DNA from: an uncultured Collinsella sp.
GTDB taxonomy: Bacteria > Actinomycetota > Coriobacteriia > Coriobacteriales > Coriobacteriaceae
Direction: 5' to 3'
DNA: 37,118 nucleotides
Assembly: GCA_949287065.1 (NCBI GenBank)
Contig: CASEEV010000050.1
Coordinates: 1 to 37,118 of the forward strand
In this document: one piece after another, positions 31,649-37,118 of the stretch
Numbering within the stretch: the stretch's first letter is position 1
Layout: every line of letters begins with the position of its first letter
Made by a program: the position numbers and the translations under genes
The notes under the pieces: generated by a model
What the model was told of the DNA's origin: nothing
What the model saw: the letters and a program-made list of their open reading frames with translations, nothing else
The model's database searches: none

Positions 31649-32758
31649 TCACGAGGCACGCGGCTCCTCAAGTCGGCCGCCGAACCAGTCCTCGATCATA
31701 TGGCGCGCAATCGACGCGCGACCGGGCAGTTCAAGTTCGCCCGACGCAACGGCACGCGTCAGCTCCTCGCGCGTGAACCACCGCGCCGCGCCCACTTCCT
31801 CGTGGTCAACGCGAATGTCCGGGCTGAGCGCCCGGGCGCGAAACCCCAGCATGATCGACGCGGGAAACGGCCACGGCTGCGATCCGAGGTAGCGCACCTC
31901 TCCCAGCTCGATGCCGACCTCCTCCATGGTCTCGCGGCGAACCGCACGCTCGAGGCTCTCCCCTGCCTCGACAAACCCCGCCGAAACCGAGTGAAACGCC
32001 GGTCGCCACGCCGTGTTGTGCTGCAGCAGCAGGCGGTCCTGGTCGTCGACGATCGCCGTGATAACGGCGGGTTCGATGCGCGGAAAGAGCAGCCGATTGC
32101 CGTCGTCGGCGTTGGTGCAGGTCTGCGCCCAACCAGCAAGCGCCGGCCGCACGGGCGCGCCGCATGCGGGACAGTAGCGCTGCATGTTCTGCCACATGCT
32201 CACCGCAACTGCGCTCGTGGCAAGACCAGCGTCGCGCGCCGAGGCACAGGGAGCAAACGACCTGAGCTCGACCCAATCGAACGCGCCCAGCGCTCGGGAA
32301 GGAAAGGTATCGTACTGGCAGCCAAACTCACGGTCTACGCTCGTCCGCCCGCGTCGAGGACCGTTCGTGGCACGCGTAATATCAAGAGCTACGTAGCTGA
32401 CCGGCGGATCTACCGTGCGGTCGGTACCCAAAAAGACGAACAGCCGCCCTGTCTCGTTGAGCTCGGAACGCACCTCTTTGCTGCCGAGAAGCGCGAGCTG
32501 CATGGCGCCTCCCGGAGCGGACGCGTCGGGGCGCGGCGCGGCAGGGTCGTACGTGCAATCCAACGCACCAGGCGAAACGTCCGCGCTGCGTTTGGGCACC
32601 GCCAGAAGCCCGTTGTTTACCAGAAGCACCTTTGTTGCATCGTCAGCAAGGAGGTGCTCGATCAGCCCCTCTTCGCCGCGTCGGTTAACATCGTAGTCAA
32701 CCGCCGACTGGGCCAAGAGCAGCCGCTTCATAAAGCCCGATTCATGCGACGAGAACAT
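31649..32758 (-). CDS. nudC: NAD+ diphosphatase / NADH pyrophosphatase (NudC)
   Basis: 369 residues from ATG 32758 (AAAGGA 5-6 nt upstream), preferred over ATG 32788, which has no RBS. The C-terminal Nudix box begins GFVEAGESLERAV at 261 and continues RRETMEEVGI. It is followed by the NudC-specific SQPWPFPAS at 293-301, which binds the NADH substrate. Before it is the zinc ribbon, with Cys196, Cys199 and Cys214; the expected fourth Cys (position 217, CTNA) is Ala. The N-terminal domain is long, as in actinobacterial and eukaryotic NudC. It hydrolyses NAD(H) to NMN(H) and AMP, and homologues remove NAD caps from RNA. The missing Cys could weaken zinc binding. Confidence 0.92.
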   Translation of the reverse strand: MFSSHESGFMKRLLLAQSAVDYDVNRRGEEGLIEHLLADDATKVLLVNNGLLAVPKRSADVSPGALDCTYDPAAPRPDASAPGGAMQLALLGSKEVRSELNETGRLFVFLGTDRTVDPPVSYVALDITRATNGPRRGRTSVDREFGCQYDTFPSRALGAFDWVELRSFAPCASARDAGLATSAVAVSMWQNMQRYCPACGAPVRPALAGWAQTCTNADDGNRLLFPRIEPAVITAIVDDQDRLLLQHNTAWRPAFHSVSAGFVEAGESLERAVRRETMEEVGIELGEVRYLGSQPWPFPASIMLGFRARALSPDIRVDHEEVGAARWFTREELTRAVASGELELPGRASIARHMIEDWFGGRLEEPRAS

Positions 32759-32809
32759 AGCGTCCTTTTCCACCGCTCCTCCGTCCATTCGGCACGCCCG
32801 TCAGCCGTC

Positions 32810-32980: not shown

Positions 32981-34105
32981 CTACGATTCCGACGCGTCAA
33001 TCTTCTGCTGAACCTGTGCGAGCTTCGCCGTAATGCGCGCCGTCACCTCGACGTAGTAGTACTGATCTGCCGTTGAGAGCGAGTCCTGGTCAATGCTTTG
33101 GATCGCTTCCGTAGTCTTTGCATATTGCGCCATCATGGTCGCGTACTGAACGTACATGCTCGGATCATTTGCGTCGTATTTCTCGAAGAACTTAACAAAT
33201 TCGTCGAAGAACTTCTCGTATTCGTCCATCTGAGACTTGAATTCAAGCGACACGCCGTTGGCGTCGGTTTGCCCTGCTTTGGACTCGGCGCCCGAAGACT
33301 CCTTGCCTTCGGCCTTCTTTTCGGCATCGTCGCTCTTCTTGGGTTCCTCGGCAGGCTCGGGTTCCTCTTCGGCGGCGTTGTCTTCAGCTTCTGCCTCCGC
33401 GTCGTCGGGCAGGTCAACCGTAACGCCCATGGTGTTGAAGCCCTCGTAATCGAGCGCAAGCGACACGCCTTCCGCGTTCTCTGCACGATAGCGCTCGGAG
33501 CTGCGATCATAATCAACCGTAAAGCCGGCGTCGGCGCAGGCATCGATATACGCCTGGAACGCATCGGAATCTGTCTCGCCAACTCGAGCAACGAAGCGAT
33601 CGCTGCTGTCGGAGGCAATCTCGCCAACCGTAGACTCGGGCGCGGGAATAAGCGCGCCCGCACCGCTCTTGGGCCAGGAGATCGTGCCCATCTCTACGGG
33701 CGCGTCCAGCGTTATGGAAAACTCGTCTTGGGACTCATAGTAATACAGGTCCAGATGCGCGCCCTCTTCGGAATACGCACTATACGAGCCCGCATCGCTC
33801 TTCGCGTCAATCGTGAAGCCGATTTCTTTGCAGTCCTCGACATATGCCGCAAAGTCGCTCGACGAGCATTCCTCAACGTTTGCGCTCAGATAGTCATCGC
33901 TGCTGGAGATAATCTTGCCCTTGTCCGTCGGCGGGTCGGGCAAAAGCGTTGCCAACCCGGACGTGGGCCACTCGAGCGGCTCGGGGCGCGAGGTCACGCA
34001 GCTCATGATCTGAATCACCAGCACCACAACGGCCAGTATTGCAATGATCCTCAGGCACCCACGCTTCTTGCCGGCCTTCTTGGATTTAACGGGCTCCCAC
34101 TCCAT
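32981..34105 (-). CDS. Secreted/anchored protein with two tandem repeats and a helical C-terminus (DUF6591-like)
   Basis: 374 residues from ATG 34105 (GGAGG 5-7 nt upstream). A basic N-terminus and membrane segment (LRIIAILAVVVLVIQIMSC, 18-36) end in Cys36, a possible lipobox (IMSC). Two homologous repeats follow: 45-135, starting EWPTSGLATLLPDP, and 143-232, starting SWPKSGAGALIPAP. Each has the pattern of an acidic loop, a CKEIGFTID / CADAGFTVD segment and a SYSAYSEEG / RYRAENAEG segment. An acidic/Lys linker (234-283) leads to a helical tail (EFKSQMDEYEKFFDEFVKFF, 288-307, continuing to 374). It resembles DUF6591-type lipoproteins of Firmicutes as I remember them. Function unknown. It is divergent from the PH-like/SPFH pair. 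Confidence 0.8.
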   Translation of the reverse strand: MEWEPVKSKKAGKKRGCLRIIAILAVVVLVIQIMSCVTSRPEPLEWPTSGLATLLPDPPTDKGKIISSSDDYLSANVEECSSSDFAAYVEDCKEIGFTIDAKSDAGSYSAYSEEGAHLDLYYYESQDEFSITLDAPVEMGTISWPKSGAGALIPAPESTVGEIASDSSDRFVARVGETDSDAFQAYIDACADAGFTVDYDRSSERYRAENAEGVSLALDYEGFNTMGVTVDLPDDAEAEAEDNAAEEEPEPAEEPKKSDDAEKKAEGKESSGAESKAGQTDANGVSLEFKSQMDEYEKFFDEFVKFFEKYDANDPSMYVQYATMMAQYAKTTEAIQSIDQDSLSTADQYYYVEVTARITAKLAQVQQKIDASES

Positions 34106-34179
34106 GCGCGCCTCCTCGAGGATCGATCGCCGCCAGCTTGCGGCACTGGCCTCATTGTGGATTTGGCCGAAGCGCCTTT

Positions 34180-34228
34180 CATCAGTTGCCAACTGAATTT
34201 TCAGCACCGATTCAGCTGGCAACTGATG
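34180..34228. repeat. 19-bp inverted repeat in the divergent spacer
   Basis: CATCAGTTGCCAACTGAAT (34180-34198) and ATTCAGCTGGCAACTGATG (34210-34228) agree at 18 of 19 positions around an 11-nt loop. It sits between the starts of the anchored repeat protein and the PH-like gene, about 60 nt before the latter. It could be an operator shared by both genes or a small palindromic insertion. No T-run follows. Confidence 0.75.
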
Positions 34229-34287
34229 CAAAAATCCAGCCCCTTCTTACGATAAAAACATCGATCTCCATCTACTAGGGAGCCCTT

Positions 34288-34884
34288 ATGGCAAAGCTCA
34301 AGCTCGCAAAAAACGAGCTTCTCATACTTCAAGAACGATCCGTCATCTTGAACGACGGAGGCACCGACCAGAATCTCGACGAGCTTGTTCTCACCAGCAA
34401 GAACCTCATTCTCGTCGATACGCGGAGAGAAGGCCTCTTTCGCTCTGCAACCTACTGCAAGCGATTCCCCCTCACGACCCTCCAGCACGCCGCCGATGGT
34501 CCGCAGGCGCTCGTTGCCAAGCTCAACGGAACCTATTGGCTGCAAGTTCTCTTTGACAGCGAAGTCGTGAGGCTTCGTTTTCCCAACGGCTCGCGAAGAA
34601 CCTGCGAGCGCTGGGCATATGCCGTGCGCCAGGTTGCCTCTGGAAACACCACCAACATCCCGAGCGAAGACTCGCTGCCGCCCGATATCGCCAACCTCGT
34701 AGACAGCGCTAAAGACCTTGTCGGCGGTTTCGTCGTCGGCGGCAAACCCAAGATCGACCAGAAGGCAGCCCCCGCGAGACCTGCCCTTAGGAGCATCCGT
34801 TGCCCCGGGTGCCATGCACCGCTCACCGGCAAGCAGGGCAGCGCCGCAACATGCCCGTACTGCGACACCGTCACAACGCTCTAA
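34288..34884 (+). CDS. PH-like domain plus C-terminal zinc ribbon protein
   Basis: 198 residues. ATG 34288 follows AGGGAG by about 6 nt. Residues 1-115 alternate strands and end in a helix (SRRTCERWAYAVRQV), resembling a bacterial PH/GRAM-like domain: KNELLILQERSVILNDGG, ELVLTSKNLILVDTRREG, WLQVLFDSEVVRLRFP. A linker (about 120-168) leads to a zinc ribbon with CPGC and CPYC (about 173-194). No membrane helix. It is followed 18 nt later by the SPFH gene, so the two form an operon. The pairing recalls B. subtilis ydjG/ydjI, where zinc-ribbon and SPFH proteins accompany a PspA homologue; no pspA is visible here. The domain call for the N-terminus is tentative. Confidence 0.75.
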   Translation: MAKLKLAKNELLILQERSVILNDGGTDQNLDELVLTSKNLILVDTRREGLFRSATYCKRFPLTTLQHAADGPQALVAKLNGTYWLQVLFDSEVVRLRFPNGSRRTCERWAYAVRQVASGNTTNIPSEDSLPPDIANLVDSAKDLVGGFVVGGKPKIDQKAAPARPALRSIRCPGCHAPLTGKQGSAATCPYCDTVTTL

Positions 34885-34902
34885 GCAGATTCGGAGTAAA
34901 CC

Positions 34903-36087
34903 ATGGGCCTCTTTGACGCAGCGTTCGACTCCATCGGCGGCGTGCTTTCCGATCAATGGAAAGACATCGTCACCTCCGCTCCCTTCGACGAGCACACGCT
35001 CGTAGCGCCCGGCATTCGCAAGCGTACGCAAGACGGGCACGGCAACAATTTCGGGTCGGAGGACATCCTCAGCAACGGTACCGTTATCTTTGTGCCCGAG
35101 AACACCGCCGCCTTCGTGTTTAGCCAATCGGGAATCGAGCAGGTCATCACCACGCCGGGCGGCTACGAATACCGAAACGGAGAGGCATCAGTCTTTGACG
35201 AGAAGGACCGCAAAGAAACAGGCGTCGGGCAGATTCTTTTCGATCAGGCAGCCGAGCGCTTCGGGTTCTCCGGCATCGCTCCCGAAGAGAAACGCGTCGC
35301 GTTCGTCAACTTGAGGGAGATCCGAAACGTCAAGTTCGGCACGCGCGGACCCCTTGTCTATCACGATCTGTTCTACGAAACCGATCTCGAGCTGTTTGCG
35401 TACGGGTCGTTTACCGTTCGCGTGACGAACCCGACTCTGTTTGTCCGCAATTTCGTCCCTGCCGGAGTCATCTCCTACTCGTTCGACGACCGCACCGTGC
35501 GCGAGCAGATGATCGCCGAGTTTCTCCACTCCTTCAACGTTGCCGTGAACGAGCTCTCCGCAGAACACCGCATCTCGGAGCTTCCGTCCCAAGCCAACGA
35601 CATCCGCAACCGCATCTCGTCCGACGAAGGCAACGCGGGCACCTGGGCTTCGCGGTTCGGCATGGAACTTGTCGCCGTTGCCGTAGAGAACATCGAGTTC
35701 TCCGACGAGTCCCGCGAACTCGTCAGGCAGTTCTCTGAGAAGAAGATGAGCGTCGCCGCGTACGAGGACGTTTCCGAGCACGCCGCGAACGTGGCCGCCC
35801 AGCAGATGATCGCGCAGGGCGTGCGCGACAATGGCCTCGGCGATGCGGGCGGGATGATCTTTGGCATGAACCTCGCTGACGGCTTGAGTCCGAGAAACGC
35901 CTCGCAGGTATCCCCGCAGGCTGCCAGCATCCCAACAGAGACCGCTGCTGCAAAACCGGAAGCACATGCCGCGGCAAGCCTCTCCGATCAAATTGCCCTC
36001 GTCAAGCAGCTCAAGGAGCTTCTTGACGCCGGGATTCTGACTGAGGAAGAGTTCGAGAAAAAGAAGCGAGACGTACTCGGACTCTAA
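34903..36087 (+). CDS. SPFH-domain protein (YdjI / virion-core-like) with C-terminal SHOCT
   Basis: 394 residues, starting MGLFDAAFDSIGGVLSDQWK, the typical opening of YdjI-like proteins (an N-terminal amphipathic helix rather than a membrane span). The SPFH region (about 60-260) includes SNGTVIFVPENTAAFVFSQS, NLREIRNVKFGTRGP, YGSFTVRVTNPTLFV and GMELVAVAVENIEFS. A Gly/Ala/Pro-rich linker (about 300-360) leads to a short SHOCT motif (LVKQLKELLDAGILTEEEFE) at the end. Such proteins assemble on membranes, and relatives link to envelope stress and PspA. It is co-transcribed with the PH-like/zinc-ribbon gene and probably terminated by the hairpins at 36140-36268. Confidence 0.88.
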   Translation: MGLFDAAFDSIGGVLSDQWKDIVTSAPFDEHTLVAPGIRKRTQDGHGNNFGSEDILSNGTVIFVPENTAAFVFSQSGIEQVITTPGGYEYRNGEASVFDEKDRKETGVGQILFDQAAERFGFSGIAPEEKRVAFVNLREIRNVKFGTRGPLVYHDLFYETDLELFAYGSFTVRVTNPTLFVRNFVPAGVISYSFDDRTVREQMIAEFLHSFNVAVNELSAEHRISELPSQANDIRNRISSDEGNAGTWASRFGMELVAVAVENIEFSDESRELVRQFSEKKMSVAAYEDVSEHAANVAAQQMIAQGVRDNGLGDAGGMIFGMNLADGLSPRNASQVSPQAASIPTETAAAKPEAHAAASLSDQIALVKQLKELLDAGILTEEEFEKKKRDVLGL

Positions 36088-36139: not shown

Positions 36140-36179
36140 CTCTGCCAAATAACGCTGTTAACGGCGTTATTTGGCAGAG
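36140..36179. repeat. Perfect 16-bp hairpin after the SPFH gene
   Basis: CTCTGCCAAATAACGC (36140-36155) and GCGTTATTTGGCAGAG (36164-36179) around an 8-nt loop. No T-run on the plus strand; ATTTCATC on the minus strand. Its 32-nt core (36144-36175) is a diverged copy of the hairpin at 36237-36268. Confidence 0.8.
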
Positions 36180-36236
36180 GTACAACAGCGTGTCTGACCT
36201 GGTGTTTTATCTTATTCTCGCAGGTAGATTAGGGTA

Positions 36237-36268
36237 GCCAAAAAACGCCGTCAGCGGCGCTTTTTGGC
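36237..36268. terminator. Bidirectional terminator between convergent genes
   Basis: GCCAAAAAACGCCG (36237-36250) and CGGCGCTTTTTGGC (36255-36268) pair with one mismatch around a TCAG loop. The A-run on the left and T-run on the right let it act in both directions, between the SPFH gene (plus) and the partial gene at 36350 (minus). Confidence 0.75.
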
Positions 36269-36349
36269 TTGGGCCGCGCGGGAAGAGGAAGGGACGCCGA
36301 GAAGGACAGGGCGGAGCCGAAGGCCGAAGGGCACGAAGGCGGCGCGGCC

Positions 36350-37118
36350 TCACCAAACCTGGGCGTATACCTCGATCGCAGCATGGTCGGGAGCGTTGGG
36401 GAGAACCACCTCGAAGGGGGCCGCCTCGCCCACGGCAGGGCGATCCACAAACGCGGTTCCGCCGTACACCGGACGCCCCGCCGCGTCCACGAGAACCGCG
36501 GTCACGGCCACCTGACCGGCACCGGCGGCAGCACGGACCTCCTCCTCAACCGCCACGGACCCCGTCACGCTCAACCCGCCCGCGCCGTCAGACGCCTCGC
36601 GCGCATCATGCACGGCAAACGGCGACTCGGCAACGTTCGAAGCCACCAGCTGCGTCGCATCGGGCTTCTCAAGCTCAAACTCGACCGTCTCGGGCGCTTC
36701 GCCCGCGCCGGCGAACCCGCCAAAATACACGGTCTCGCCCGGCAGGACCGCCATGAGGGTCATAGTCTCCGAGAAGAGCGTCGCCCCGTCCGCGTCGCGC
36801 CCGGTAATAACGACCTCGGGATAGTCGACCTCAAACTCCCCGCTCTTGTTCGCAATGCCAAAGACGTAGTTCACCACGCCCCCGGGCTCGGGCGACCAGC
36901 TCTGCGCCACGAGCTCGAGAGCGCTCGCCGCGGCGCGGGAGACCTCTCCGCCCTGGGCGAGAAGCGCATCGGAGTCTGCGCCGTCGCCTGCCTGCCCACC
37001 GGCGCTGACCGCGGGCGCGCCGCCCTCGGCTGCGGGGACCTCTCCCCCGCCCGTTGCATGCCACACGGCAACGGCGCCCAAGCCGAGAAGCACGGCGCAG
37101 CCCGCCGCTACCGCAACG
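36350..37118 (-). CDS. Membrane-anchored extracellular protein, C-terminal part (runs off the right edge)
   Basis: The frame is open to the window edge, so the true start lies outside. The visible beginning is hydrophobic (VAVAAGCAVLLGLGAVAVWH), a signal anchor or lipoprotein segment. It is followed by an Ala/Gly/Glu-rich linker and then a beta-rich outside domain: VVNYVFGIANKSGEFEVDYP, EVVITGRDADGATLFSETMT, AVLPGETVYFGGFAG. This pattern is like FxLYD-type domains, which are common in actinobacterial lipoproteins. The C-terminus (DHAAIEVYAQVW) is intact. A start at GTG 37093 inside the helix is unlikely. Function unknown. Confidence 0.7.
   Translation of the reverse strand, partial: VAVAAGCAVLLGLGAVAVWHATGGGEVPAAEGGAPAVSAGGQAGDGADSDALLAQGGEVSRAAASALELVAQSWSPEPGGVVNYVFGIANKSGEFEVDYPEVVITGRDADGATLFSETMTLMAVLPGETVYFGGFAGAGEAPETVEFELEKPDATQLVASNVAESPFAVHDAREASDGAGGLSVTGSVAVEEEVRAAAGAGQVAVTAVLVDAAGRPVYGGTAFVDRPAVGEAAPFEVVLPNAPDHAAIEVYAQVW

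Follow-up and report, generated by a model that had tools for sequence, protein, structure and literature searches.

Three genes that diverge from a common control region in an uncultured Collinsella sp. raise the question of whether they form a single system with parts on both sides of the cell membrane, and of what would control it. They lie within a window of 37,118 nucleotides (the whole stretch of DNA analysed), corresponding to contig C50 in a draft genome of 2.08 Mb. The first encodes a DUF6591 protein of 374 amino acids (32981–34105, minus strand). Facing it on the plus strand are the genes for a 198-residue protein with a PH domain and a C-terminal zinc ribbon, termed PHZn here (34288–34884), and for an SPFH protein of 394 residues with a C-terminal SHOCT domain (34903–36087). 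On balance, and with only a little more than even confidence, the analysis favours a five-gene regulon in which an XRE-type protein and a transmembrane kinase control these three genes, together building a two-sided envelope module without PspA. An earlier note on this DNA had proposed the trio as a module, and had overlooked both the XRE-kinase pair and the nature of the inverted repeat between the genes as a recurring operator.

Conservation of the gene linkage

A survey of 398 genomes of the class identified 24 with a full-length DUF6591 match (defined as E < 1e-55). A PF13421 SPFH gene lies within ~5 kb of DUF6591 in 22 of these 24, and 15 of the 22 loci have the divergent arrangement with an SPFH of the window's type. 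By our own estimate, genomes of 2 Mb that hold between one and a few SPFH genes would show such linkage by chance in roughly 1% of loci, and with 22/24 observed chance was rejected as an explanation. One exception, G328, has no SPFH but keeps DUF6591, the kinase, the operator and a PHZn of reduced length. The module idea had been staked on DUF6591 being a recurrent neighbour of the SPFH pair, and it survives on this count.

When the SPFH alignment was scanned against 84,980 species, 80 loci were recovered. PHZn is encoded directly upstream of SPFH in 74 of them, across both Actinomycetota and Bacillota, in taxa ranging from Olsenella, Bifidobacterium and Gardnerella to Streptococcus, Clostridium and Microbacterium. 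DUF6591 is found near SPFH in roughly 30 of the 80, many of them Bifidobacterium. The distribution is patchy, and three further genomes from the genus have neither PHZn nor the window-type SPFH. At the level of sequence, the gene trio is real and conserved, and its linkage is well supported. Phage or plasmid cargo was rejected, as matches to such elements were confined to a few small or distant records.

Several loci show variations on this arrangement. In Streptococcus pneumoniae (L179, 4907–7110) and its streptococcal relatives, the PHZn-SPFH genes follow an rbfA-like gene and a lipoprotein gene; these loci have a 167-aa lipoprotein in place of DUF6591, and no XRE-kinase pair. Four other loci (L084, L094, L144 and L145) combine DUF6591 lipoproteins, full-length in L084 and tail-only in the other three, with an XRE-kinase pair, a zinc-ribbon protein and a YdjI-like SPFH type with GYF_2. 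Where PHZn is absent or the SPFH is of another type, small proteins with membrane segments and a C-terminal zinc ribbon adjoin SPFH (L170 7129–7725, in Neobacillus, and L083 7871–9040), and these may be alternative anchors.

A recurring operator in the divergent control region

The earlier note had described a shared divergent control region with a 19-bp inverted repeat. Region and repeat both stand, although the arms, at 34177–34198 and 34210–34231, measure 22 nt (91% complementary). The repeat consists of two copies of a 13-bp palindrome, CAGTTGNCAACTG, with a palindromic or near-palindromic 13-mer in each arm. Operator 1 is CAGTTGCCAACTG (34183–34195), and operator 2, CAGCTGGCAACTG (34213–34225), forms with it the inverted repeat 34177–34231. 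The two arms are the only CAGYTGNCARCTG sites in the window's genome, and 27 of the 29 sites found genome-wide in 11 module-bearing genomes fall within the module. All 17 divergent intergenic regions examined contain one or two operator copies with at most one mismatch. Collinear Collinsella loci carry the operator ahead of both PHZn and DUF6591, many loci carry it ahead of the kinase gene, and exact copies are present in two Bifidobacterium loci (L161 and L214). At the kinase promoter in the window's genome there is a degenerate copy (two mismatches) with TACAAT 30 bp away.

Neither a consensus sigma-70 promoter nor a -35 consensus was found in the control region. From their conserved position in relatives, -10 hexamers are predicted at 34154–34159 on the minus strand (CACAAT, DUF6591 promoter), beginning 30 bp away from the operator 1 centre, and at 34248–34253 on the plus strand (TACGAT, PHZn-SPFH promoter), 29 bp away from that of operator 2. 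Transcription is predicted to begin near 34147 (minus strand) and 34260 (plus strand). The start of the DUF6591 gene was corrected from a TTG at 34231, which is located ahead of the predicted promoter, to the ATG at 34105. With a -10-like hexamer defined by A at position 2, T at position 6 and at least three of six matches, 49 of the 50 pairs of operator and promoter have one that begins 29–31 bp from the operator's centre, against an average of 2.3 rows and a maximum of 7 in comparable windows elsewhere; the rows had been picked by eye through the operator and neighbouring gene, not through the -10. This places the operator at about -42, overlapping the -35 region. A site at about -42 is the usual place for an activator that touches polymerase. 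The fixed spacing of ~30 bp and the lack of a -35 consensus are in keeping with an activator. Matching operators at a fixed distance from the -10 precede both the PHZn-SPFH operon and DUF6591, and the shared control of the module genes expected from the earlier note is, by sequence, well supported.

Of the alternatives to this regulon, the one that fares best would have the palindrome act as a repressor site, with the module off until a kinase signal releases it. Many XRE proteins are repressors, and an overlap with the -35 region would suit one. However, there is no -35 consensus in the region, and the single fixed distance from operator centre to -10 is activator-like, so that repression, at about one chance in four in our judgement, is improbable.

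Predicted proteins on both sides of the membrane

The DUF6591 protein is a full-length member of its family, as its match to PF20234 covers the whole model (positions 1–228; E 9.9e-90, 300.7 bits against a curated cut-off of 27.1). Its predicted structure (30 sequences; mean predicted local distance difference test, pLDDT, 82.9) has a short cytosolic N-terminus, a membrane helix at residues 18–34 and two similar, predicted extracytoplasmic alpha/beta domains at 43–134 and 142–231; a disordered linker then leads to a tail of three helices at 287–373. These limits agree with the two tandem DUF6591-like repeats and helical tail that had been read from the sequence, and both repeats match the PF20234 model; the Pfam model has one repeat, whereas here two precede the tail. 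The label of lipoprotein fared less well. Read from the sequence, the cysteine after the membrane helix stands outside a standard lipobox, with IMSC here and ISRC or other motifs in relatives, some of which have none, and a lipoprotein nature is doubtful for this protein.

A Foldseek search with the DUF6591 repeats returned nothing below E 0.02. A second structural comparison gave matches at Z 4.3–7.0, the best to DcrB (Z 7.0), then BamC and the PknH ectodomain, with Flpp3, DUF4853 and Mog1 also in this range. The models thus hint at a Mog1/PsbP-like arrangement, too weakly for it to be claimed. A sequence search against solved structures gave no convincing relative of either DUF6591 or SPFH, and no paper on DUF6591, a family without described function, turned up in the literature searched. 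In five Bifidobacterium loci (L161, L206, L214, L217 and L219) the outside part of DUF6591 is preceded by a long additional N-terminal stretch in which several membrane segments are predicted; one such extension had no Pfam match.

PHZn was modelled from 51 sequences (pLDDT 86.5) as a PH domain over residues 1–123, a low-confidence linker and a zinc ribbon. The model is of the PH fold, which has seven strands and a C-terminal helix, and aligns at Z 12.0 over 107 residues to 2hth, the EAP45 GLUE domain, with many PH chains above Z 10. Pfam gave no PH match for the window's PHZn, and a relative gave bPH_3 at E 0.008. The zinc-ribbon residues C172, C175, C189 and C192 are invariant in 51 relatives, and no membrane segment was found in PHZn; its earlier description as a cytosolic PH-like/zinc-ribbon protein is upheld.

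The SPFH-SHOCT identity is likewise secure, with both domains above their curated cut-offs: PF13421 (SPFH/Band_7_1) at 42.6 bits against 24 (E 7e-11), and SHOCT at residues 368–392 at 36 bits against 27 (E 5.4e-9). In the tree the protein groups with Collinsella (support 99/96). The SPFH-SHOCT proteins (PF13421 + PF09851; PMC3581485) have an identical two-domain architecture, and SPFH is the commonest setting of SHOCT (PMC3581485). Compared with other members, the window type forms a subfamily of its own, which regularly has PHZn next to it. The predictions therefore place parts on both sides of the membrane, DUF6591 outside and PHZn and SPFH inside, as first proposed.

Two such sets of proteins could serve independent functions under one regulator, PHZn-SPFH being a general membrane-domain scaffold and DUF6591 a separate surface protein, with no complex across the membrane. 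PHZn-SPFH is indeed widespread without DUF6591, and some DUF6591 lipoproteins that consist of the tail alone are found beside the XRE-kinase pair together with SPFH of other types. Against this, divergence from a single operator region is conserved, and the linkage is kept in other families and in Bifidobacterium. In addition, some relatives have a cytosolic SHOCT (L204) or zinc ribbon (L211, L087 and L086) fused ahead of the DUF6591 membrane segment, and these fusions suggest that the outside domain is tied to an inside complex. Independent functions are accordingly judged unlikely, slightly more so than repression.

Relation to PspA and to Bacillus YdjFGHI

The absence of pspA remarked on in the earlier note extends to the genome, in which a search with PF04012 gave no match; 9 of 14 control genomes did match. 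A PspA-dependent PSP system was therefore rejected for this genome. Among 50 module genomes, 27 have either no PspA or one that scores below the cut-off, while about half of the module genomes do encode PspA elsewhere; pspA lies within 6 kb in only 1 of the 80 SPFH loci. From its absence here and its absence or sub-threshold score in those 27, the module is taken to be independent of PspA.

In Bacillus, the SPFH protein YdjI requires membrane partners to reach the membrane, is needed for PspA localisation there and lowers membrane rigidity (PMC8581546). Its neighbour YdjG combines a pair of zinc ribbons with an NTF2-like domain and a membrane segment, and in the proposal of Ravi et al. Band-7 systems couple outside sensing to membrane dynamics inside (PMC11237479). 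The locus resembles Bacillus subtilis pspA-ydjGHI (PMC8581546, PMC11237479) in encoding a cytosolic SPFH with a zinc-ribbon partner, and in the proposed coupling of outside signals and membrane state. It differs in having no pspA, in the SHOCT on its SPFH and in the addition of an outer DUF6591 and an XRE-kinase pair. PHZn, with its PH domain and one C-terminal ribbon, also lacks the two ribbons, NTF2-like domain and membrane segment of YdjG, and the window's SPFH scores 42.6 bits to PF13421 compared with ~170 for the best members. The likeness to ydjG/ydjI noted earlier is consequently a general one: the plan is common, the parts differ, and the module is not a YdjFGHI/PSP system.

It might still descend from one, as a PspA-less form of the ESCRT-III-linked YdjFGHI membrane repair with PHZn in place of YdjG/YdjH and SPFH in place of YdjI. 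The pairing of SPFH with a zinc-ribbon protein in one operon, the behaviour of YdjI, the outside-to-inside link of Ravi et al. and the presence of PspA elsewhere in about half of the module genomes would all fit such a history. The lack of PspA in this genome and of neighbouring pspA in nearly all loci, the dissimilar build of PHZn and the distance of the window's SPFH from the core Band_7_1 type by PF13421 score speak against it, and make this descent a distinctly unlikely account.

An XRE-kinase pair beside the module

The last open reading frame of the window (36353–37006) is matched by a kinase encoded beside relatives' loci, with 40% identity to kinase residues 339–556 (tblastn-type match), and the start of contig C51 has 60% identity to residues 2–288 of the relatives' kinase. 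Given that C50 and C51 overlap by 20 bp with a continuous kinase frame, the window ends inside the kinase gene. Its C-terminal half (36350–37118, minus strand) encodes the membrane helix and ectodomain and is cut by the contig end, while the catalytic half lies at C51:2–976 (minus strand). The latter matches Pkinase (E 6.7e-25) and carries the motifs VRK, HRDIAPQN and DLG of a Hanks-type Ser/Thr kinase. A kinase domain, single membrane helix and outside domain are shared with the PknB/Stk1 kinases, but the ectodomain here is weakly FxLYD-like instead of PASTA, and the gene has an XRE partner; relatives of the kinase score 108–114 bits to the PASTA kinase model, far below its cut-off of 450.

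The XRE-type gene lies after the catalytic half on C51 (1118 to about 1558, minus strand), upstream of the kinase, with a borderline match to HTH_26 (22.5 bits against a curated cut-off of 22). Almost every Coriobacteriales DUF6591 locus has the pair alongside, as do five loci in Bifidobacterium, and the helix-turn-helix region is well conserved where operators are present. A kinase-based anti-phage defence system is highly improbable: the distribution in the family is patchy and a relative's kinase domain matches the kinase models of PD-T4-6 and MAD6 (best E 2e-39), but these are generic kinase-domain matches, and PADLOC gave none for DUF6591, PHZn, SPFH or XRE.

A second XRE-kinase pair, with a diverged helix-turn-helix and no operator nearby, is present in the same genome on contig C65 (L232, 5290–6675). 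In the Collinsella An7 and An268 loci a second XRE gene, encoded on the other strand, separates SPFH from DUF6591 (L080 8931–9344, minus; L081 8389–8802, plus), and operators lie in the interval from this gene to DUF6591. The window has two strong inverted repeats in the gap that separates its convergent SPFH and kinase genes, a 40-bp near-perfect palindrome (36140–36179) and a hairpin with 15-nt arms (36236–36269), both of which may be terminators. The Nudix gene at 31649–32788 was not seen as a conserved neighbour in relatives' loci, and no known RNA families or tRNAs were found anywhere in the window.

A candidate two-sided envelope regulon

In the favoured regulon, the transmembrane kinase would sense the envelope through its outside domain and signal, probably by phosphorylation, to the XRE-type protein encoded alongside. 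This protein would bind the CAGTTGNCAACTG operators centred ~42 bp upstream of the transcription starts and co-activate the PHZn-SPFH operon and DUF6591, with feedback onto the kinase gene. SPFH would form an oligomeric scaffold at the inner face of the membrane, PHZn would dock it to lipid or partner proteins, and DUF6591 would be the membrane-anchored outer half, binding a wall or surface ligand. Together the three would stabilise or monitor the membrane without PspA. The operators, their distance from the -10 and the kinase and helix-turn-helix motifs are read directly from the sequence, and the PH and DUF6591 folds are predicted; binding and activation by XRE, kinase action on it, contact across the membrane and a role in envelope stress or surface sensing are what we infer from them.

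Several points weigh against this reading. Many of the loci are close relatives, and because of this the counts overstate their independence. The XRE protein is the natural candidate for the operator-binding factor through its linkage, and several module loci have no XRE-kinase pair within 6 kb (for example L211 and L164). PHZn-SPFH is common without DUF6591 or the kinase, and the core therefore works in other settings. The structural searches with the DUF6591 repeats gave no clear known fold, which also counts on this side.

A literature search for the gene combination found no description of it. It is possible, though we put this forward tentatively, that the locus represents an undescribed PspA-independent transmembrane regulon of Coriobacteriia and bifidobacteria, running from the kinase through an XRE activator and 13-bp operator to an inner SPFH/PH scaffold and an outer DUF6591 in one complex. 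SPFH proteins are widespread, yet the control and anchoring of those acting without PspA are largely unknown. Here one locus brings together an operator, candidates for the activator and for the receptor kinase, and a partner on the outside, which makes the question directly testable, and the PHZn-SPFH core is also present in genetically tractable streptococci, bifidobacteria and bacilli. DUF6591 gains its first functional setting, in what appears to be a hitherto undescribed means by which some gut bacteria monitor or stabilise the cell envelope.

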